From positions 620,001 through 684,000 of the forward strand of contig NZ_CP018022.1 of assembly GCF_001886495.1 (NCBI RefSeq): a stretch of 64,000 bases of DNA, read 5' to 3'. Shown here one piece after another: positions 12,731 to 47,619 of the stretch. The stretch's first letter is position 1; the number at the start of each line of letters is the position of its first letter. The position numbers and the translations under genes were made by a program. Below the pieces are notes generated by a model. That model was not told the DNA's origin, did not search any database, and saw only the letters and a list, made by a program, of their open reading frames with translations. This stretch comes from Spiroplasma sp. NBRC 100390. Its GTDB lineage: Bacteria; Bacillota_I; Bacilli_A; Mycoplasmatales; Mycoplasmataceae.

Positions 12731-12760
12731 ATTTTATTAAAAAAAAAAAAAAAAAGCAAA
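12731..12760 (-). promoter_or_regulatory. Poly-T-spacer promoter of lipoprotein 1
   Basis: Read on the minus strand: TTGCTT (12755-12760) as -35, a T18 tract (12739-12756) filling the spacer, AA, then TAAAAT (12731-12736) as -10. The spacer is 18 bp. The -10 lies about 46 bp before the ATG. The tract length is the likely switch by slipped-strand pairing, as in Mycoplasma hyorhinis vlp promoters. The same bases also form the U-tract of a hairpin, so termination is an alternative role. Confidence 0.55.
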
Positions 12761-14431: not shown

Positions 14432-14463
14432 ATTATATTAACAAAAAAAAAAAAAAAAAGCAA
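14432..14463 (-). promoter_or_regulatory. Poly-T-spacer promoter of lipoprotein 2
   Basis: Minus strand: TTGCTT (14458-14463), a T17 tract (14443-14459), GT, then TAATAT (14435-14440), spacer 17 bp. An overlapping TATAAT sits 3 bp further on (14432-14437). The -10 lies about 55 bp before the ATG. A weak CAAGTA/TACTTG hairpin abuts the tract on the upstream side. Confidence 0.5.
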
Positions 14464-30142: not shown

Positions 30143-30170
30143 AAAATTAGTTTAAAATTAAACTAATTTT
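30143..30170 (-). terminator. Terminator of the five-gene surface operon
   Basis: A perfect 12-bp repeat AAAATTAGTTTA/TAAACTAATTTT (loop aaat) overlaps the stop of the last gene by two bases. T-rich sequence follows on the minus strand. Confidence 0.8.
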
Positions 30171-31389
30171 AATAAATATTATTTACTTCTTCTAACTGAT
30201 CATGATTAATTCGAAACATTTTGTTATTTTGTTCGTCAATAATATAACTATGAATATTATTAGTTGTTTCTTTTTCATTAAGAATTTTTTTTAATAAAAA
30301 AGTTTGGTTTAAATAATCAATTTGATATAAGTTACCAAGTGTTGTCATAACATAAGTTACGCCTTTAACAGCAAATAATGAATTTGTTGCTAAATATTCT
30401 TCGCCAGGAATAAAACCTTGTTTTAAATTAAGAAAAATTGGGGCTGTTAAATCTAACATTCAATCTGAACCATCATATTGTAAATTAAATAAAATTGGAT
30501 CTAAGTTTTCTGTTGCCGGATTAATAACAGCAACATATAATTTATTGCGAATTTCAATTACTTGAATTAAAGCAACCGTTAACAAATCTCATTGATCATT
30601 TCCTTGTACTTTAATTGCCTTATATTTTGGTTGAGCTAATTGACCATTATTAACTGCTTGTGTTACCATATATAACTGTCTGTTATTTGGATAATGTTGA
30701 ATAACATTAATTCGCATTGTATTATTTGGAATTTTGTTAATGTTTTTTGGAAATATCATTCGTCCAAGCTGTAATAAGTTTTGATGATTAACAGTATCAC
30801 AATCTCACTGTAATAATTCTTGATCTGTTGTTTGATAACCCGTCGGTGTTTTTTCAATTGCAATTGCACCTTGACTACCAATTCCTAACATACTATTCTT
30901 AGTAATTTGAAAAGCACTGCTTACTGTAAAAACTAAATTATTTTTAATTATTTCATCAGGAGTTAAATATTTTAATGATAATCAGAATGATTGATTAGTT
31001 AAAAATTCAAAACTATTATTAATATCATATTTTACTTCAAAAACAATTCCAACCGAAAAACTATGATCATCAAGAATTTGACCATCACGATCTAAAACAG
31101 TTGTAATTTTAATGTTCTGAGGGGTAACACCATAAATGTTGTTATCGCCCCCCAAAACATTATAAATAGTATTTACTGCATAAATTTTACCTTCAGTTAA
31201 AGTTACTTTATTCTTATCAATTTCAATTTCTTGATATGTTTTAACTGTATTGGTAACCTTTTGAACTGCCAATGCTAATGTATTTTTTTGTTCGGGATAT
31301 AGATTATCATTCTTTGTACAACTTATTAATGTTAAAGGTAACCCTAACATTAACGTTCCAACTGTCAAAATTGTTCATATTTTTTTCAT
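30169..31389 (-). CDS. Lipoprotein downstream of giant FtsX-like permease
   Basis: A 406-residue protein with a type II signal peptide (MKKIWTILTVGTLMLGLPLTLI) and a lipobox LISC at about residues 21-24, so it should be anchored outside the membrane. The rest is beta-rich with repeated short strands around aromatic and Asn residues (for example MRINVIQHYPNNRQLYMV, LYVAVINPATENLDPI). This looks like a propeller or a beta-sandwich, but no family is recognised. It starts 12 bases after the permease stop with an AGGAG site inside the gap, so it is translated from the same mRNA. A role as ligand-binding partner of the permease is inferred from position. Confidence 0.85.
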
Positions 31390-31401
31390 TGGTTCTAACT
31401 C

Positions 31402-34400
31402 CTATTCATCACTTAATGTGACAATTGTTTGAATTGGTAACTGGTTAATTTTTCTTGTTGATAAAACAAATGTTAAGGCAAAAATCACACTAATAATTCC
31501 AAAAATCGCAATAAATAATAATCACGGCATTGGTAAACTTAATGGCAAACTAATCGCTTGTAACCCCATTTTAACGGCAAAATAAACCGCTGTTCAAACT
31601 AAGAAAAAGCCTAGTAATCAACCTAAAATGGCAAAGGGAATAAAAATTGCTAATGTCATACTATTAATTTCTCCACGCCGGTAACCAAAAACTCGCATTA
31701 AAGCAATAAATTTTGTATATCGTTCCATAAAAACATCTGTTACTAAGAAAATAATAATAACTGCTGTTAAAATAATAATCGATACCATTGCTCCTGCTAA
31801 CACAGTTGTAAAATAACTTAACTGATTAACAACTTGTTTCTTATTATATAAATAATCAACTTTACCAACTGCCGAACTGAAAAAAGTTAAACCATCATTT
31901 AGCGAATTATCCGCGCTAACAGAAGATAACACATAGCGTTGAAATTGATCAGCAGGTTGGATTGCTTTCGTATATTTACCATTAAATCATTGGGAACTAT
32001 CTTGATATCCAAGAACATGATTTGCTCATTTTTGATCTAAAAAAATTCGAGCTTGATCATAAGAATGTTGGACTCCAACCACCTTAAATTGATAATTAGA
32101 TAAGACATTAAAATTAGATGTTGTTACTCGCAACAGTCCTAATTTCAAAGCTTGCCCATACCAATTTTTAGCAAAACCACCATTTACTAAATCAATCAAT
32201 GATTTTAAAGGATGGTCAAAATCTAAATCATATGCACCTATAACATAGTTATTTTGTTCAATTTTAGTTACTTTATTATTTAATAAATCAACTTTCATTG
32301 GACCACTTTCTGGATTAATATCAATCTTGTCTTGACTTCAAGCATGCGCATCAATCATATTAACTGGTAAATTTAATTTTAAACCACTAATTGAAGCATA
32401 TGGCTGATTAACATTTGTTCCTCACTGGTCATTATTAGTCCCCGTTAATAAAGAATTTGTTAAATGTGATAGATTTAAAGTTCAAGGGTTATTTGTAATA
32501 TTACCATTTTGATAAGTTCATCATTCAGGTTTAATATCATAATATTGTTGGTCTTTACCTAAATATTGCAGTCGTGGTTGATTGGTATAAAAATTAATAA
32601 TATCATTCAATCTTAAATTATATTTTACCGCTGCTGAATCATTAATTGCAATTGGAATTGTTTTATTCTGTTTTGAAGGAACTTTTTGTAATTTTGTTTT
32701 TAAGTCATTTGTAAAAACAACTTGGTTATCATTGACATTAAGACCATATGATGAAATTTGATTTTTTGCACTATCACGGATAATTCCATTGACAGCAGCA
32801 ATTTTTGTATCAAAACCGGTAAATAAACTATCTGTTTTTTGATCATAAGCCATTGAGTTGAACCCAAAGTTAAAGCGTAACTGATATTTTTCATTTGCTG
32901 CTCATTTTTCCTTAATAACAGTTGGTAAAATTGTATTAGTTGCTTGTTCAATACAATACGACCATTTATGTCATGTTGTTCCTGCTGCTTCTGAATTTGA
33001 AACTGGTGATTGACCAAATAATTGAGGTAAAAAAGTACATGTTACTAATGATAATTGATTATCAAGCCGAGTTTTAATATTACTATCCGTTGGTAAATCA
33101 TATAAATAGCGTAATAACCCAACTGAAATATTGCTGCCTTTAAATACCGTCATATTTTGTACTAACATATTAACAACAAACAACGGATAAGAGGCACTAT
33201 AGTTAGGATTGGTCGCTAATTCTTGCAAAGTAATTCATTTTGTTGTATTATCTGCACCTCGTGCATATACATACGGTGCAATTGGGACATTTTCTAACTT
33301 TTGATAAATTGGGTCATTAACTCCACCATAATCTGGAAGATCTTCACTAGGACTATCATAAAGTTCATAACGACTTAACGGATTATTATAAATAATATTT
33401 TGATAATTTAATTCATTGGCATAATTTAAGTTTTGATAATATTGTTTGCTTAAGGTTTTGATACTATTTGGAACCAAGGCTGCTAACGTAATTGTGCCCG
33501 TAGCAATAAAAGTTGTTACTAAGAACATAATAACTGCTTTTCAACTAGCTCCTAATAGGACTAACCGGAATCGGGTCTTAAATGACCGCTTAGTAAAATA
33601 TAATGATAATTGACTAATTAATTTGTTTGGTTTAAAATCACGATTTGGATTTATTAATGCTAACACTTCTCGACCTAATATGACATTACATTCAATCACA
33701 ACAAGAATAAAAATAATGCTTCCTGCTAAAAGGAAAAACAATAATAACACTTGCCAATTAATGACAAAAGTACTTGGTAAGATAAAATATTGTCCAAATA
33801 AATTAATAATTGGAACCTGTAAGCCCAAACCAAGTAATCACCCAATTGGAGTAGCAATTATTAAAGCCGTCAAAAAATACATCACATAGGATAATGAAAT
33901 TTTAAAATTATTATAACCATTTGCCTTTAAAATCCCAATTTGACTCCGTTGCTTTTCAATCATACTTTTTAATTGAATAAATAAAATAATCATAATAATT
34001 ATGGCAAAAAAGATTACAATTCCAATTATTACTAAATGATAAATTTTAATTGCATTGTTTAATAATTGATATCGATTATTAATCAACTGGTTAGCATCAA
34101 ATTTACTAAAACTAACATTATTAATAACATCCGTTTTATTTTGAAAAATTGCCTCTACTGTTTTTCCCAAACGGTTAATATTATCAGCTAAATAAACACG
34201 ATAATAACTTAAATCAGTTTCCTTCTTATTTTGATTATCACCATAATATGTTAATTGAACTGTACTAACATCTTGATACTGTTGACTAGTAAAACCTTCA
34301 TTATTGTAACCAAATAAACGATTAAACATTTGAGGATGAACATAAACAATTGATTCATTTTTTGCATCAGGTAAAAAATCAGTATCATAAATTGTTGGAT

Positions 34401-35865
34401 AAATATTTTGTGTATCGCCTCCAACAGCTTCAATATAAAGTTTTAATTGATTAACTAGAATCGTATCATCAAAACGCAAATGATTTGCTTTAAAATACTG
34501 TGGTAACACAATTGCCGTATCAACCATTTCATTTAAACCCCGATCAAATCATTTTGATTTTTGTAATATTTTTAATTGTCCTGAATTATAAGGCTGCGTT
34601 CAGTCAATAAACTTATATTTTTTCCCATCAGTTGTTCACGCAATTGCTTGGTTACGATTAACAACTTGAAAATTACTAATCATTCCAAGCATATCTTGAT
34701 AAGTTGTTAAAAAATCATTATTAATAAATTTATTATTATAATCATACTGACCAAAAAAGTCATATGTACTTAAATTACGAACCTTATAACTACCGTTTAA
34801 CAAAAAGTTTTTAGTAACATTACTATGATCATTTTTATCATTTAAAAGTTGCACAATATTATCATTTTTAGCATCAGTTAAAAAATAACGATAATTTTCG
34901 ACTCCTGTACAACCAGTGCTATTCTGACATTCAAGTTCTTTTAACCCCAAAGTATTATTTGGATCATAAATTGGAAAACCTATTGTTCCCCGCATCCCCC
35001 AATATTTATCGGTTGCTGCTGTTGGGGTTAAAAAAATTCGATCTGCTCGAGCAACATTTTTACCAGGATTATCAATTCCTAAATTTTTTGTTTGCCAATG
35101 TTCACCTAAGTTTGCCCCGTTAATAAACTGATTTAAAAGGTCAGTATCTGTAGTATTATTTTTTAACGCATAAACTTCAATGTTTTTATACACTAAATAA
35201 GTTAACCGTGACTCTAAAATAAAATGCATATAACGTTTTACCAAATTAATTGCTTGTGTTTTAACAGTTGAATCAATACTATTATTAAAAATAAAACGCT
35301 TGTATAATTGTCCTAATAATGATTTTTGAAATGAATACGCATTAAAATTAAACCGATATAACTGTGAAAATTCTCCCGTTAAAACATTATTATCAGTCAG
35401 GTTAATTGCATTATAATCTAATAAAATATTTTCAAATGGTACTCAACTACCACTTTTTGCAATTTGCAAATGGTTTTTATCAATTTTAAATTGGTATTTT
35501 TCCCCTTTTAAACCCGTACCTAAATCAAATGGTTTTAAAACATCATCTGGACCCCCAATTGTTAAGGTTCCATAGTTTTTTTCAAAAAAACCATTTCCAA
35601 TCCCAGCATAATCAACGTCAAAAGCAAACCAAGGTGTAATGGTTTGTTGATTGTTTGCTTCATAATTAGTTGAAATATAATTATAGTTATAATCAATATT
35701 TAATGTTCCATATCCCATTGTTTTATTTGCTTTTTGCAACCGATCAAAAGAAGTTAAACAAACAGTTGAAAATAGTGCTGTTAAAACAATTAAAATAACA
35801 AAAATAAAAACTTGTGTTTTATTTTTAAAAGTATTTAAAATTCCTTGTTTCAACAATAATCACAT
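31402..35865 (-). CDS. Giant FtsX/MacB-like ABC permease
   Basis: The reading frame of 1,487 codons is unbroken under code 4 but is split at more than ten TGAs in standard code. The architecture is a transmembrane helix at residues 10-32 and a very large extracellular domain of about 580 residues. A cluster of three helices around residues 610-720 carries SMIEKQRSQIGILKANGYNNFKI, an FtsX-type loop (E-x-R-x-x-I-G-x-L-x-A-x-G). A helix follows near 760-800, then a second large extracellular domain of about 480 residues. The last helices, from about 1,325, contain FMERYTKFIALMRVFGYRR (second FtsX loop), and the chain ends in two more segments. This is a duplicated LolE/MacB-like permease in one chain. 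No ATPase is adjacent. It probably moves or senses lipids or peptides. Confidence 0.85.
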
Positions 35866-35904
35866 TTTTCTGTCCTCTTTCGTTAAAAGTGTTATTAATT
35901 CTTT

Positions 35905-36411
35905 TTATTTAGTAGTTAAATATTGATAAGTTTTAGAAAAACGAAAAATAATTGTAAAAAAAATTTTATTTCGATAAATTAAGACATGTTTATTTGCAAT
36001 AATTTTTTTATTTTTATTTTGATCAAAATAACTGTCAAATAAATAAACACGATCATTTTTTTGATAAATCGTAAAATATATCGAGCAACTACTTAAATAA
36101 ATAATTCATAATATTGCTAAAATTAAAGTACTTATGCCAAAATAAGCAATGTTTAATAATGTTGCTTCGTTAGAAATATCACCATTTCCAAAAATAATTG
36201 GTTCAAAAATTGCTAAGAGCGATAAAATTACTAAGATTAATAATATTACTGTTGTTCCAACATTAACTCCAAAAAAAATCCACGAAATAATTCGGTTTTT
36301 CCGAAGAAAGCTTTGACAATAACCGTAAATCAAATATATTGTACCAATAAGTCAAATTGCTAATGCTAAATAAATAAAGATTTCAAGAATAACTAAATAA
36401 AATGGAACCAT
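35905..36411 (-). CDS. Small membrane protein of the surface operon
   Basis: A 168-residue protein starting MVPFYLVILEIFIYLALAIW. It has four hydrophobic segments: residues 3-30, 43-70 (FFGVNVGTTVILLILVILSLL), 82-105, and a shorter one near 105-115. A basic polar C-terminus of about 50 residues with FDSYFDQNKNKKIIANK follows. No family is recognised. Its start follows the stop of the DUF4091-like gene by one base (TAAGATG) and shares that gene's AGGAGG site. It lies 39 bases before the giant permease. The arrangement suggests an accessory subunit of the same membrane complex. The N-terminal and middle helices suggest both ends face the cytoplasm, but the topology is only inferred. Confidence 0.8.
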
Positions 36412-36412
36412 C

Positions 36413-38554
36413 TTAACCTCCTAAATATGTTGTTACAACTTTATTAATGATATTTTCAAATGTTTTAACAACCATTACTTCATCAATATTATTTCGTGTT
36501 AAAAAGCGATATAAGAATGAATTTGATAATTTAATATCACTTTCTGCTGTTAACGCATTGTAATTAAAATTGAACTTACTATGACTAGTTGGTTTACTTA
36601 ATTTAACATTGCTATTAACATATGACATCATTGTTACATAATTTGGTAATAAGTTTAATTTTTTTAAGTACATAATTTTATTGTTCATATTAACTCCGTA
36701 GGCAATGGCATCTAATCGTGTTGAGGGATTAAAATCAGCAACAACATTATTGTTTGGATCAGGATTTGCAATTGAAGGATAAGCAAACATTGTATCACCA
36801 GCAATATAAATTAAACCAGTATGTTCATCATAATCAGCTGATCAATATGCTGTTTCGGTCCATCCATTTAAAAGATAACGCATATAATGTGGAGCATTTT
36901 CTTTTAATAAAGCTAATTGAATATAAGAACTTACCCCGGGTTCAGAACGAATTAAATTAAACGTATTATCAGCATCTAATGAATACTGACCCGTAATATA
37001 TCCTTTATCATTTCGTTGTTTTACTAAATTCATAAATTTACTATTTTGTTCATTATAAATATCTAAAAAATAAATATGTAGAATATCAACCTCATATGTT
37101 GCTGGATCATTATAATCAATATCACGTTCTCAATCACAAGCTGCTAATTTAATATATTCACGGTTAGGATCATATTTCTGAATTAATGTTAAATATTTGC
37201 CAATTGTTGAACCGGGTAATTCATCAATATAAAGATATGGAGTAACAGTTTGTGTTCATTTCGGTTTAACTGTTTTAATATGATTTAACAATTGTTTTAA
37301 AAATCATTCGTTATTTCTAATCCCGTCTTCAACATACATATTCATACTAATTGGCATATAGTCTTGTTTATCTTCATCTCAAACATTATTAGTTTTATAA
37401 GTTTTATTTCAAGCGGCTTGTCACCCACTTAATAAAGCTTTTGTATAACCAACCTCTGCCATTTTGTTCATATAATGATCTCATGCTTTTCAATCTTCAT
37501 CCGCAATGTATAATCTTTTTTGCTGATTATACCGTCATGGTAAAAATGTTTGAACTTTGTTTCCATCCAATCAATTATTATGCCATTCGGTATTTTTTCG
37601 TTCATTTAATGAAATTGAACTTTGAAAATAATCCATCCCTAAAACATTATGTAAATAAGTGTTCTCTTGTTTTCAATAACGATCTCAATTATAATCAATA
37701 TATTCGATATTATCATATTTGTTTTTAATAATATTTGGAACTTGATAATTATTATAGTAAGCAGCACTTCAACCAAAAAATGAATAAATATTAAAATCAG
37801 ATTTTTTTTGTTCTGTTGGCAATAATAAGTCAGCAACTTTAACTTGAATTTCATTTTCACTTAAAAGTACATTAGTTTGTTTTGTTCCCGGAACATCACC
37901 AGTTAATTGAACATTAACAGTATAATTTCCTGGATTAGCCACAACTTTATCTTTAAAGCTCATAATTTTGATTCATAAAATATAAACTTTATTTTTATAA
38001 GCATTTTTTTCAATTGAATTTGTAGTAATTGCATCAGGAACTAATAATTTTTCATTAATTCCATATGGATTTGGAATTCGTTGAGTTGTTAACGAATATG
38101 ATGCATAAATAAAACGATTAAAACCAATCTGAATTGTCAGATTGTTTTTTTCTAACTCAGCAGCATTAGTAACAGTTGCGGTTAAATTAGTAATATCATA
38201 GTTGTTTGTTTTCAGAACTAATTGTGTATTAATAAAATCTTGTTTTCATAATTGCAAATTAACATTAGGATTAATACAATTATTATAATTTTCTAAATTA
38301 CCATAAAACTTAGCATTTTTTAAATCATTGCTTAATTCATTTGGCTGATATAAAGCATAATTATCATGTTGACTACCAAAAAAAGTGTGAACATAAGGAG
38401 TTTTATCTTTACTTTGACTTTGCGTTGTTGGTTGACAACCCTCTAATCAAACACTTCGCATAAAACTATCCTTTTTCACAAATAAAACAATTGTCACTAC
38501 AGTAGTAAAAATAGTTAAAAATAAAATTAATGACATTGCAATCTTTTTAAACAT
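36413..38554 (-). CDS. DUF4091-like extracellular glycan-processing protein
   Basis: A 713-residue protein anchored by one N-terminal transmembrane helix (MFKKIAMSLILFLTIFTTVV). It has no lipobox Cys, so it is probably a signal-anchored extracellular protein. The N-terminal 250 residues are beta-rich. The following region looks like a TIM-barrel glycosidase: YIDELPGSTIGKYL (family YxxDEP), VDILHIYFLDIYNEQNSKFM, KGYITGQYSLDADN, and ENAPHYMRYLLNGWTETAYWSADY as the barrel end. This is the layout of DUF4091 proteins, which are related to glycoside hydrolases. Many Trp codons are TGA. It is the second gene of the five-gene operon, 30 bases after the lipoprotein. The catalytic residues cannot be proven by eye. 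Confidence 0.6.
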
Positions 38555-38584
38555 TTATAAATTCCTTTCATATTTTTTACTTAA

Positions 38585-40756
38585 TTAATATAAGAAATAA
38601 ATTTGTTTTCACGCTCCACTTTGAGTTGACCCAATTCCGTTCGTAATTTCACCAGAACGAACATAATTATCAATTTTTGTAATAATTCACATTGGTTGTT
38701 CTAAATTACCAACATTAGTTCATTCAATATGGTATTTATGACTAACTGGTTTTAAATTATCTGACAATCCCAATCCGCTATATGCAATGTTTTCCTGCTT
38801 ATTATCAATACTATAAAACTGTTTTGGATTGTAATGATCATCATAAAATTGATCATTAACATTAATTTGATTAGTATGACTTTCAGTATACAATTTTGTT
38901 ACTGAACTATCACCAACACCATTATATTCAAAATCATATGATAAACGTTCTTCTGCTCCTACCACTTTTTGTGTATATTGTGGATTACTTACTTTTCAAT
39001 ATTTATCATCAACAACATATTGTAATACGTTTTCATGTAAAGTTTTCATAACATTATTAACACCAGCAAAGAAAGGACTATTACTATTAAAAAATAAGTA
39101 ATTATAATCTTGATAAGCAATAGCGGTTGGATCAGAAATAGCAACTAGTAAATGTTGTAATAATGAATTTTTTTCAAACTTGTTTGTACTATTATTTCAA
39201 CCCATTGTTTTTAAAACATTATTTAAATTAGTTGTTGTTAACTCTTCAAAAGAATTTGCTAAGTTTTGATAACCACTTAGAGTTGTCAAAATATCATTAT
39301 CATTTGTTAAAGTCTTAATTAAATCTGTTAAATCAAAGAAGATATTTGATAAAGTAAATTTAAAATTAACTTTATCACCTTGTAAAGCTAATAAAATATC
39401 TAGTAATTGTTGTAAACTTGTTTTTTGTGCTTGCTCTGAAGCTCACCAAATTGCAGTTTTTATTTTACTAGCCAGACTATCAATAATATTATTTGTTATT
39501 TTAAGATTTAATGCTTTTTGGGTTGCTGGGGATAATTTTTTCCAAATATTTAGTAGTAATTCACCAACATGACCAATATTTTGATAGTTTCCAGCAAGAT
39601 TATTATCATTATAAGTTTTAAAATCAGGAATTTTTTTATTCATAATGGCATTTGTTAAATTAAAATTATGATATCCTTTGCTTGTTTCATCTTTTAACTT
39701 TGTTAATAGTTCTTTTGTTTCCGGACTTTGTTCCACTAATTTTTTTAATTCATCATTAACTTCACCACTTGATAAAAATCCTCAAAAACCACTATCAATT
39801 CCCGCCAAAGAATTAATTTGTGCTAAAAATTCACTAATAATTACTCGCAATAAAACATAAATTGGATTTGTTTCTACTTGAGCATCTTTACCAATAAAGT
39901 TAAAAATATTATTTAAAAACATTGCCCCAATTTGAGCACCTAATGGATTTTCATCAACTTGATTTAACATTGATAAAAATTGCGCCGTTTTACCATAAAT
40001 TGCCGTTAAAGTTGAGGTTTTTTCAATTGTATATTCATTATCACCGAATTCATATTGTGGTTTTAAACCAGTACTTTGTTCAGTATCAATAAATAAATTT
40101 TTTTCTTTAACACCAACATGTTGGTTATTATAGAAAGGATTGGTTGATAAGCCCATTCCTCCTGCGGGATAACTAACATAGAAAGCACGCGTTGCTGGAA
40201 TTCAGAACTTAATACCAACATTGTTCATTAAAGCTGACAAAGCACCCATATCATAGTTATAACCTAATAATTCACTACGATTAGCATCAATTTGTTGTTT
40301 TGCAGGGTCAAAAAAACCATTCGCAAGAAAATCACGATAATAAGTATTATCATACATTCCAATATAATATTGTGGTAACAATTGTTCACGGGTTGACTTA
40401 GGATCAGCATTTTTTGTGTGTGCAATCATTTTATTGTAATTGTTGTTAAAATCTTGAATTAATTTTGATAAATTAATTTTTTGATTATTGTAAGTATAAA
40501 TACTTGGAATTGATTTTCAATATGCTGCTGGAGCATATAAACTTCGCACAAGTTCACTTGGATTAAAATTTAAATTTTCATGACGTGCTAATAAAGTAAT
40601 TTTTGTTAACAGTCCTGTTGTATTAATCATATTACGAAGTTTTTCAGGAATATCATTGTTATTATCATTATCACCCTTATGACGACAAGCTAATAACGGC
40701 ATACTATTTCCAACCACAACAGTTGAAATAGCAAAAAAACTTAATAATTTTTTCAT
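38585..40756 (-). CDS. Large lipoprotein heading the surface operon
   Basis: A 723-residue protein with signal peptide MKKLLSFFAISTVVVGNSM and lipobox LLAC (Cys about residue 24). A low-complexity DNDNNND linker follows, then a mainly helical extracellular region containing repeated Leu-rich helices (for example LLILLALQ-like blocks, TNNIIDSLASKIKTAIWWAS). The last 150 residues are beta-rich (YDFEYNGVGDSSVTKLYTESH). No family is recognised. It is the first of five genes in one direction (38585 back to 30169) with gaps of 1-39 bases. Its promoter carries a T17 tract at 40811-40827, so the whole operon may be phase variable. A groEL terminator hairpin overlaps that promoter. Confidence 0.85.
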
Positions 40757-40802: not shown

Positions 40803-40830
40803 ATTTTAATAAAAAAAAAAAAAAAAACAA
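40803..40830 (-). promoter_or_regulatory. Poly-T-spacer promoter of the surface operon
   Basis: Minus strand: TTGTTT (40825-40830), a T17 tract (40811-40827), AT, then TAAAAT (40803-40808), spacer 16 bp. The -10 lies about 47 bp before the ATG. A second TATAAT occurs near 40782-40787. The tract is also the U-run of the groL terminator hairpin. Confidence 0.5.
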
Positions 40831-43062: not shown

Positions 43063-43803
43063 TTATAATACTTTTCCTTTTTTATTTCGAAGATTACTTA
43101 AATAATTCAATATAATTGCTAAACCAACCACAATAATCAATAAACTAATAATACCAACAAAAAAGATTGGAAAACCAACTTCAAATGGATTTAATTGATC
43201 ATATGGAAACGGAGTAAATGCTTTTTGTCCTTCAGAGATAAAGTTTACTAGCATTATGCCTCGTACTGAAACATAAAGTAAATAAAAGATAATTAAAATT
43301 AAATTATATCAACTATACTTTTTACAATACTGTTTTGTTCCAACACTTTTTGTTGTAAACAAAAAATAATAAACAATGACAATAATTGGCACTAACATAT
43401 GTTCTAAAACTGATTTTAAAATTTTATATCATGTATTAAAACCAACCACATTTGTCGGTGAAATTAATAATGTGGTATTAAAAACAATAAAGCTTATTAC
43501 ATTTAAAGTTGTAATTCGAGTCAAATTATTTTTTCCAGTAATTCAGTCTGGCATATTTTTGGTATGGTAATGAATCCAGTTTAAAATTCCATAACCTGCT
43601 GTTGCTAAAGCTACTCATACAGATAAATAAATTGACTGATTAATAATTGAGAAATCAAAATTTCTTGTTGCATCACCATATTGTGGATCGGGTTGAATTG
43701 TTGAAAAAAATAAGTCCAATAATACACAAAACAACGGAATAATCGCAAATATAACATAAAAACAATACTTTATTTTTAAAGATCTTTGCCCTATTTGTTG
43801 CAA
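43063..43803 (-). CDS. Polytopic membrane protein, possible Pr6Pr-like family
   Basis: A 246-residue integral membrane protein with about six to seven hydrophobic segments. Between them lie short loops containing NTWYKILKSVLEHMLVPIIVIVY (an H-x-x-[VL]-P segment as in Pr6Pr-type proteins) and a C-terminal basic tail NKKGKVL. The family assignment is uncertain and no function is known. There is no in-frame ATG at the start; TTG at 43801-43803 is the best start, with AGGGGG 11 bases upstream. Its promoter contains a T18 tract at 43860-43877. The gene ends just before a strong hairpin. Confidence 0.65.
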
Positions 43804-43851: not shown

Positions 43852-43882
43852 ATTATGCCAAAAAAAAAAAAAAAAAAGACAA
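43852..43882 (-). promoter_or_regulatory. Poly-T-spacer promoter of the membrane-protein gene
   Basis: Minus strand: TTGTCT (43877-43882), a T18 tract (43860-43877), GG, then CATAAT (43852-43857), spacer 19 bp. The -10 lies about 48 bp before the TTG start. A weak hairpin GGCAA/TTGTC abuts the tract. Confidence 0.45.
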
Positions 43883-44713: not shown

Positions 44714-45781
44714 CTATCGATAAAATTCATTTTGATATGTTTTAACAAACTCTCAATCTGTAACTGCATCTCAGTTAACTGATCAAGTCATCATTCCTTT
44801 TAAATAAATGTTTTGTTCTTTTAATAAGTCAGTTGCTTTTTTAATATCCTGAGCTTTAATTTGACCATTTGCTGCTGCATCATTGTTTGCTGGTAATCCT
44901 CATAATAATTGGTTGGCTGGAATTTGAAAAAAATTATCTTTTCCTTGCACAATATATTTTGCAATTAAATATAAGAATTCTGCTTTATATTTGGTATCAT
45001 TTTGTGTCAACCATCAACCATTAAAACCTAATGCTTCTTGTTCTTCAATTGGAACATTAACTCCATCCCCAGCTTGATTATAAAATTGTGGAGCAATAAA
45101 ATCAAGGTGTATACTTAAACCTCGCAAATATGGTAAATATTTTCCTTGACCTGCACTTGTTCGTAAATATGGAAATTCTGGTGCCATTGTAATTAAAAAT
45201 TCTTTGTTATAGAACTCTGCATAATAATTTTTAAGAAGCACTAAAACTCTAGGAATAATATCCTCATTTTCTCCAGCACTAATTGCTGATTGTTCTAAAT
45301 CAATATCAATTCCATCAAACCCAAACATACTTACTAACTTTCTAATTTCTTGAGTAAAAGCTAGTTCGTCATCAGATTTTAAAGAAATATGTGCATCAGC
45401 ACCACCTAATGATAAAATAACTTTTTGTCCACGCTCTTGTACTAATTGAACTTGATTAGCAAAATAATCATTTTTTTCATCTTGCGTAAAGTGCGGTTTA
45501 TGTGGTACTTCTGGAATAAAAGTTGGAATTTCACCAGTTTTATATGATTTCATAAATGAAACATTAATAAAATCATATTCCTGATTAACATCAACTAAAT
45601 CAATATATTTGGCGGTCCCGCCTTGATATCCAGCACCATTATCTCAGTTATGTCAGTAACCAACTAAAATTGGTTTGTGTTCTTGCGAATTATGATAAGT
45701 AGTAAAATTACTATTTGCTAATGATAACGGAGCACTTGTAACTAACGTCAATGTACTCATTAATGATATTAAACCATTCAT
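44714..45781 (-). CDS. Secreted GH18 chitinase
   Basis: A 355-residue glycoside hydrolase family 18 enzyme that cleaves beta-1,4-GlcNAc polymers such as chitin. It has a signal peptide (residues 1-25, NGLISLMSTLTLVTSAPLSLA) without a lipobox, so it is probably secreted. The catalytic DxxDxDxE motif is intact as DGIDIDLE at about residues 156-163, with E163 the acid. LSLGGADAH is the SxGG motif, and FIAPQFYNQAG and MTWSVNWD are the later strands. The start at 45779-45781 is preferred over an upstream ATG because AAAGGA is then 10 bases away. Monocistronic, with its own terminator. It points to an arthropod-associated life. Confidence 0.93.
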
Positions 45782-45927
45782 AATGATCATATCCTTTCAT
45801 TGTATAGTATTTTCAGTGGCTTTCCCTACCTTAATTTTACTAAGGAAAAATAAAAAAGTAAATAATAAAATCTTTTTAAAATAAGAAAGATTATAATTAT
45901 TTACTTACAATAGAAAGTTTTGTTGTT

Positions 45928-47532
45928 TTATGCTTGTCAACGTAGTTTTCAACCAGCAACTCCAATATAGGCTCCAATTAAGCCTAACGAAACCCCCAGA
46001 TAAATACCATAAGTTGGTGTAAAAACAAAATCTTGTCCACTTCATGCTTTTAAGAAGGGATCCATTGTATATTTAAATGGGTTAATATAAGTAACATACT
46101 TCAATACATCACTACCATTAATTAATTCTGCTGGAATAAAAGCCCCACTTAAGAAGGCAATCGGCATAAAAATAACATTTGACCCAGCAATAAATGAGGT
46201 TGTTGATTTAAAAATTGAAGATAACATCATTCCTAATGAAATTGTTGAAATAAAAACTAACACAACAAACGGAACTGCTGGTCCAAAGTGATTTGGCGCC
46301 GCAACTTCTTTTCAACCAAAACTTGGTCCAAAGAAAATTCCTGCTCATAATAATGTTCACAAAAACGATATAATAATAAAAATTAATCCAACGAACATTA
46401 CTGATAAAACAAAGAAAACTGGTTTAATATTTGTTGCTCCAATTCGCTTCATTAAAACACTATTTTTAAATTCTAAAATTGTTTGTGGAATAATAAAAAT
46501 TCCCACCGACATTGCTTGTACCATAGCAATTGAACCAACTAAAGTATGAATATTTTGCCCTGGATTGTCATTTAATTGTTTAAAAGCAAATCCGTTTAAA
46601 AATAATAATAAAATAGGATATACAATTAAAAAGAATGGTACAAAGAATCCTTTATAATAGTATTTTAACATTAAGTCAATTAATGGTTTGTTTTTACCAC
46701 GAACACGACCATCGCAAATTCATTTATCGACTTTATTTACCCGTGTGCTTTGCTTGCTTTGTTTGACCATTTTTTGAAATTGCTGATCTAAATCAGTTTT
46801 CTTGTTTTGTTCAAACATTTGTCAAGTAAAGTTATGAACTGAACCATATTTTTTTACAATATCTTTGACCATTCCGGCCTCTTTAATTTCACCATTATGA
46901 ACATAAATATATTTTTCACAAAATTCTTCAACTTCACTCATCATATGGGTTACTAAAAACATTGCTTTTCCTTTTTCAACAATGTTCTCGCGTAAAAAAT
47001 GAAAAATTTCTGACCGAACCTCAATATCTAACCCGGTTGAAATTTCATCTAAAATAACTAAGTCTGGGTCATGGATTACTGACAATAAGATATTTAACCG
47101 TTGTTGTTGTCCCCCAGAAAGTCCTTCGACAAATTTGTTTTCCATTCCAATTAGTTGATATGTCCGTAATAATTCTCGTAACTGACTATCAGTCATTGGA
47201 ATATTAAATGTATTTAAATAGTATTTAATCATATCCATAACTGAAATTCCAATTGGATATTTTGATTCTTGGAACTGAAGACCAATGGTTAAGTTTTCTT
47301 GACGAACTACTTTTCCGGCCGTTGCATGCCGAATCCCACCAATAATTTCACTTAACGTTGACTTCCCACTTCCATTAGCACCAATAACCCCAATTCGATC
47401 ACCAGGATTAATAACTAAATTAACATTATTTAAAGCAACTTTATTTTTGTACTTTTTTGTAACATCAATTACTTCAACTAACGGTTTGGACGCATCAATC
47501 GCTTTGCGTTCTTTTACAACTGTTTGCTTCAT
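45928..47532 (-). CDS. ABC-2 exporter with ATPase and permease fused in one chain
   Basis: A single 534-residue open frame. Residues 1-236 are an ABC ATPase: Walker A GANGSGKS at 51-58, QFQESKYP, LSGGQ at 138-142, Walker B LVILDE at 158-163, and switch LVTHMMSEVEEF. A charged linker (about residues 237-287) crosses in-frame TGA Trp codons. The last 250 residues are an ABC-2 permease with about six membrane helices, LMKRIGATNIKPV, and FLSGAFIPAELINGSDVLKYVTYINPFKYTMD, the classic ABC-2 block. The family usually has these on two genes, as at 2268-3795 here. The promoter has a T17 tract (47597-47613). The exported substrate is unknown. Confidence 0.9.
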
Positions 47533-47588: not shown

Positions 47589-47619
47589 ATTTTATCAAAA
47601 AAAAAAAAAAAAAGCATAA
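47589..47619 (-). promoter_or_regulatory. Poly-T-spacer promoter of the fused ABC exporter
   Basis: Minus strand: TATGCT (47613-47618, weak -35), a T17 tract (47597-47613), GA, then TAAAAT (47589-47594), spacer 18 bp. The -10 is about 57 bp before the ATG. A weak hairpin after nusB abuts it. Confidence 0.45.

Follow-up and report, generated by a model that had tools for sequence, protein, structure and literature searches.

Several described systems come close to parts of the locus treated here. Glycoside hydrolases of family GH123, such as CpNga123, BvGH123 and NgaDssm, combine a beta-sandwich, a barrel and a C-terminal DUF4091 part with an adjacent Asp-Glu pair. DUF4091 (PF13320) belongs to GH123-type beta-N-acetylgalactosaminidases, and the Asp-Glu motif is their catalytic pair (PMC11087588). 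Among type VII ATP-binding cassette (ABC) systems, LolCDE and LolF have two FtsX cores of four transmembrane (TM) segments with outside domains between TM1 and TM2, and MacB has an FtsX-type core with a coupling helix. Giant duplicated FtsX permeases are also annotated in other mollicutes, for instance Mycoplasma genitalium MG_064 and MG_468, which are adjacent to an ATPase gene. Finally, the poly-T promoter of Helicobacter pylori sabA carries a T-run whose length differs between relatives. All these elements have counterparts in a five-gene operon lying on the minus strand at 30169-40756 of a 64,000-nucleotide stretch of Spiroplasma sp. NBRC 100390 (the window; positions 620,001 to 684,000 of contig NZ_CP018022.1, the single contig of 1,199,621 bases that makes up the genome). 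The literature searched contained no report of the operon or of GH123 in Spiroplasma.

An earlier note on this DNA, drawn from the letters alone, had described five minus-strand genes with gaps of 1-39 bases over 10.6 kb, among them a DUF4091-like protein with a possible glycosidase barrel and a 1,487-amino-acid (aa) duplicated FtsX/MacB-like permease. With open reading frames (ORFs) called by genetic code 4 (the mycoplasma code), genes and order are as described there, the gaps being 30, 1, 39 and 12 bases; the enzyme proves to be of GH123 type, and PF02687 matches the permease twice. The features of the operon are as follows (LP1 and LP2, lipoproteins; SM, small membrane protein).

40803..40830, minus strand: T-tract spacer promoter, TTGTTT (-35), 16 nt, TAAAAT (-10)
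38585..40756, minus strand: LP1, 723 aa, lipobox LLAC
36413..38554, minus strand: GH123-type enzyme, 713 aa, N-terminal TM segment, no lipobox Cys
35905..36411, minus strand: SM, 168 aa, 3 TM segments
31402..35865, minus strand: FtsX permease, 1487 aa, two FtsX domains
30169..31389, minus strand: LP2, 406 aa, lipobox LISC
30143..30170, minus strand: A/T-rich hairpin then T-rich stretch (RNAfold -8.3 kcal/mol), before xseA

We tentatively read this locus, at somewhat less than an even chance, as a phase-variable surface operon of the citri/poulsonii group of Spiroplasma, in which trimming of N-acetylgalactosamine (GalNAc) would be coupled to an ATP-driven machine of LP1 and the permease. The genes would be carried on one transcript. 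The enzyme would remove terminal beta-GalNAc from host glycoconjugates; this residue is abundant in arthropods, in arthro-series glycolipids and LacdiNAc glycans, which would be the obvious targets. Trimming would expose or free a ligand, which the LP1-permease machine would then capture or move. The permease would form no channel but work through mechanotransmission, setting its outside domains and LP1 in motion at the surface; it would be driven in trans by the sole MacB/LolD-type ATPase of the genome, which would serve several such permeases. Slippage in the T-tract would alter the promoter spacer and raise or lower expression of the whole operon. A glycolipid or lipid as cargo is an attractive suggestion.

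The 713-aa protein is firmly placed among the predicted GH123-type beta-N-acetylgalactosaminidases, on both profile and model grounds. A profile of 11 homologues matches CpNga123 (5fqe, E 2.3e-18, over profile positions 97-671) and BvGH123 (5l7r, E 1.2e-17) with the Asp-Glu pair aligned, and the relation to the solved enzymes covers the N-terminal, barrel and DUF4091 parts. The pair itself, Asp444-Glu445, is invariant in 11/11 homologues, as is R613, and other members of the family match PF13320 (GH123_cat) at 1.9e-19. When the AlphaFold2 model was compared with the Protein Data Bank (PDB) by Foldseek, the first 20 matches were all GH123 or related beta-N-acetylgalactosaminidases (E down to 2.3e-28, TM-score 0.54). 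In contrast to the known enzymes, the Spiroplasma protein, whose activity is predicted, is a mollicute protein encoded beside an FtsX permease; it is 16% identical to them, carries an N-terminal membrane anchor (a helix predicted to stay uncleaved and to tether the enzyme) and has a conserved partner gene, that for the 3-TM SM, at a gap of 1 base. The same genome also encodes a second GH123 subfamily, a lipoprotein whose gene (L021:1994-4195) follows another LP1-permease pair at a distance of 5.5 kb; it is paired with a 382-aa protein (L021:1994-5358), with a T17 tract of its own at the head.

The distribution of the genes was surveyed in 60 genomes of the family with profiles for LP1 (A3) and the permease (A5). 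Both were found in 33 genomes, a degraded permease alone in 1 and neither in 26. LP1 lies immediately upstream on the same strand, within 1.6 kb, for 34 of the 51 permease matches; in four loci it is downstream, and in one clade (G068, G072, G073, G080) permeases are present and LP1 is located elsewhere. Only the GH123 and SM genes part LP1 from the permease in this genome, G002 (S. poulsonii) and G005, the three genomes to which LP2 is confined. Because these three components differ in distribution, the operon is a composite, in which a GH123-SM pair has been placed between the members of an old LP1-permease pair, with a private LP2 at the end. The LP1 family is specific to Spiroplasmataceae, with the lipobox Cys24 and a HENxN motif at 59-63 invariant in 15 homologues. 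Neither lipoprotein matched Pfam or NCBIfam, and LP1 gave no match in the PDB profile search; its structure model (predicted local distance difference test, pLDDT, 54) was not taken into the fold search. Two proposed relationships were rejected: LP2 and the 394-aa lipoprotein encoded close to the second GH123 gene match only in the signal peptide, and M246 (43063-43803), considered as a displaced operon head, is not similar to the genes that head other LP1-permease operons.

The five genes thus do not form one ancient unit, since LP1 with the permease and GH123 with SM form separate modules elsewhere and LP2 is private to three genomes. Scattered homologues had been named in the earlier note as evidence against its proposal, and such scatter is half borne out. 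LP1 and the permease usually stay adjacent. That the five proteins form a complex and switch together may still hold. A real possibility, though clearly short of an even chance, is that two functionally independent modules are merely co-transcribed: chance would have inserted a GH123-SM pair, of nutritional or adhesive role, into an LP1-permease operon, and there would be no joint complex. The pair occurs with no LP1-permease nearby in G007, G022 and G023, and therefore need not act with the permease; moreover, the GH123 gene does not adjoin most LP1-permease operons. On the other hand, the insertion between LP1 and the permease has been retained in three genomes, LP1 followed directly by GH123 recurs in another genus (L112), and four genomes have a second GH123 subfamily at no more than about 10 kb from an LP1-permease locus.

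The coupled and switched operon that we favor further depends on its promoter, which the earlier note had counted as one of five T-tract promoters. A/T runs of at least 12 number exactly five in the window, each of 17-18 T's on the minus strand and 53-64 bases 5′ of a start codon:

12739-12755, minus strand: T-tract
14443-14459, minus strand: T-tract
40811-40827, minus strand: T17 tract of the operon promoter, inside the -35/-10 spacer
43860-43877, minus strand: T-tract
47597-47613, minus strand: T-tract

The count was confirmed, and the reading was strengthened by tract lengths in orthologues and by tracts elsewhere in the genome. Genome-wide, there are 44 distinct T-runs of 16-18, 30 of them T17; an ORF follows 38, and 20 of these ORFs are lipoprotein genes. 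Since many of the tracts read TTG(C)-T17-(n)TATAAT, the T-run fills the promoter spacer. Promoters with T16-T18 in this position form a genome-wide class, about half of them ahead of lipoprotein genes. Each of the three LP1-permease operons of this genome is headed by a T-tract, and such tracts recur in other genera. Of the 21 T/A runs of at least 14 in 34 LP1-permease loci, 16 take the operon-head, coding-strand position (P 6e-17 in a binomial test that takes no account of relatedness), and of only three runs of at least 16 in the S. poulsonii genome, two head its two LP1-permease operons. Tract lengths at orthologous promoters vary between kept flanks (17/16/17; 16/19/21; 17/18/17/18/10; range 10-21), as expected of a phase-variable promoter. 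A homopolymer inside the -35/-10 spacer and length variation among relatives, two of the marks of such promoters, are therefore both found, and we infer that slippage in the tract would alter the spacer and switch the operon as a unit. The likeness to sabA extends to the T-run and its length differences; in contrast to sabA-type promoters, the tracts of this Spiroplasma genome are held tightly at 17-18, and switching is a prediction.

A hairpin sits directly upstream of the operon T-run, so that the site is also terminator-like for groEL. It is conceivable, if unlikely, that the tract is only the tail of this terminator, that the promoter is the downstream TTAAAA-18-TATAAT, which a promoter scan reports at 40809-40780, and that the operon is not phase-variable. 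However, TTG, the T-run and TAAAAT are preserved in G002 and G005, while the downstream TATAAT (40785-40780) is missing in G005, which keeps TTG-T17-TAAAAT; a start from the downstream TATAAT would land on the ribosome-binding site; and the layout TTG-T17-TATAAT recurs at many unrelated genes of this genome. These points favor the T-tract itself as promoter spacer.

The permease consists of two repeats of TM1, an outside domain of about 550 aa, TM2, a coupling helix, TM3 and TM4, giving eight TM segments (4+4). Among solved structures, its profile comes closest to LolF chains, at a weak E of 0.02. Unlike LolCDE, it is a single chain holding both halves, its outside domains measure about 550 aa and no LolD is adjacent; mollicutes, moreover, have no outer membrane or Lol acceptor. 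Differing from MacB, its core is duplicated, there is no MacA or TolC, and the 1487-aa chain contains no ABC_tran domain, hence no MacB-like fused nucleotide-binding domain. The claim that the ABC ATPase is missing holds locally, as no ABC ATPase gene adjoins the permease; it does not extend to the genome, which has one ATPase scoring with MacB, LolD and DevA (L107:4656-5591; G000:C1:18883-19533), with intact motifs and about 600 kb from the operon. Compared with MG_064 and MG_468, the partner here is the lipoprotein LP1 and the ATPase is distant. The nearest ABC gene, 45928-47532, was rejected as the missing ATPase: its product is an ABC-2 exporter that unites ATPase and membrane domain on a single chain, and its scores place it far from MacB/LolD. 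In G029, the gene directly after an LP1-permease pair (L032:11342-12934) encodes a protein that has several TM segments and, at its N-terminus, a similar ABC motif.

Against this single MacB/LolD/DevA-type ATPase, the next-best match being PotA, stand 15 FtsX domains in about 8 permeases. The same pattern holds in ten Spiroplasmataceae genomes, where one ATPase per genome scores 212-216 bits to TIGR02982 as against 10-25 FtsX domains; a second, weaker ATPase occurs beside small FtsX genes in three of the ten (G004, G005, G029). The coupling motifs, QIGILKANGYNNFKI and KFIALMRVFGYRRGEI, one per half, are kept in 17/17 aligned permeases, including the ATPase-adjacent one. Because one such ATPase is present for about 8 permeases and both coupling helices are kept, it is likely that the orphan permeases share it in trans. 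The permease could instead need no ATPase and serve at the surface as a scaffold or adhesin, its FtsX cores being relics, in line with the lack of an adjacent ATPase gene; conservation of the coupling helices of both halves in all homologues, and of a MacB-type ATPase with intact motifs in every genome tested, make this rather improbable. A BceAB-like role in defense against, or sensing of, host antimicrobial peptides is very unlikely: BceB too is of FtsX type and insect haemolymph is the habitat of these bacteria, but nothing in the analysis points to peptide binding, BceB has 10 TM segments and one domain of about 200 aa, unlike the 4+4 layout with two domains of about 550 aa, neither a sensor kinase nor a BceA-like ATPase lies alongside, and the operon encodes a predicted GalNAc hydrolase.

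Lending some support to a shared ATPase, a C-terminal tail, ING(W/Y), is common within the genus to a 5-TM protein encoded between the ATPase and its permease and to membrane proteins of nearly all LP1-permease pairs. It was found in 22 of 851 ORFs, the two not of this kind being one lipoprotein in two sister genomes. Genes with this tail include:

L107:5684-6535: 5-TM protein of the ATPase operon
L021:16409-17284: accessory protein
L022:15376-16284: accessory protein
L025:1730-2617: accessory protein

In place of ING(W/Y), TPP-x-F is found at the 504-kb permease of this genome and in a different genus. Both tails are possible docking peptides.

Beside the free-standing GH123-SM pairs mentioned above, several observations weigh against the coupling of GalNAc trimming to a switched, ATP-driven machine. 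First, the operon in question has no accessory protein with the ING(W/Y) tail, which links the other LP1-permease operons to the ATPase operon. Second, the 713-aa protein on its own falls below every Pfam threshold, and its model has a moderate pLDDT of 71. Third, LP1 of G005 is broken (L024:3018-4539, two ORFs with the middle missing), the other four genes being apparently intact. Fourth, no feature of an assembly is less reliable than homopolymer length, and each species is represented by one sequence.

Gene order and 83-93% identity of all five genes are shared with G002 and G005, and S. poulsonii MSRO_BK (L094) has the same 18 kb, with its five proteins 84-93% identical. Same-strand neighbors are groES and groEL upstream and xseA, xseB and dxs downstream. 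A/T-rich hairpins with T-rich stretches flank both ends of the operon (groEL-LP1 and LP2-xseA), and that at 30143..30170 probably marks its end. A gene for a GH18 (chitinase-like) glycosidase lies at 44714-45790 of the window, upstream of groESL and near the GH123 operon.

S. poulsonii takes up lipid from the haemolymph, and its growth is limited by that lipid (PMC4123717). As to how wall-less insect symbionts obtain host lipids and sugars, the operon, conserved in S. poulsonii, offers a concrete candidate, namely a predicted GalNAc-cutting enzyme together with a putative ATP-driven surface machine under a slippery-T promoter; this species is not known to have a lipid uptake machine. A wider proposal, to be regarded as speculative and on balance improbable in its full form, is that giant type VII ABC surface machines form a phase-variable family in spiroplasmas, with one MacB-type ATPase shared by all and a separate lipoprotein and tools for each; here the GalNAc hydrolase would unmask arthropod glycolipids or glycoproteins for taking host lipid or glycan from the haemolymph. 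The pattern of one ATPase for many permeases, if true, would mean that type VII ABC systems have a motor in common.

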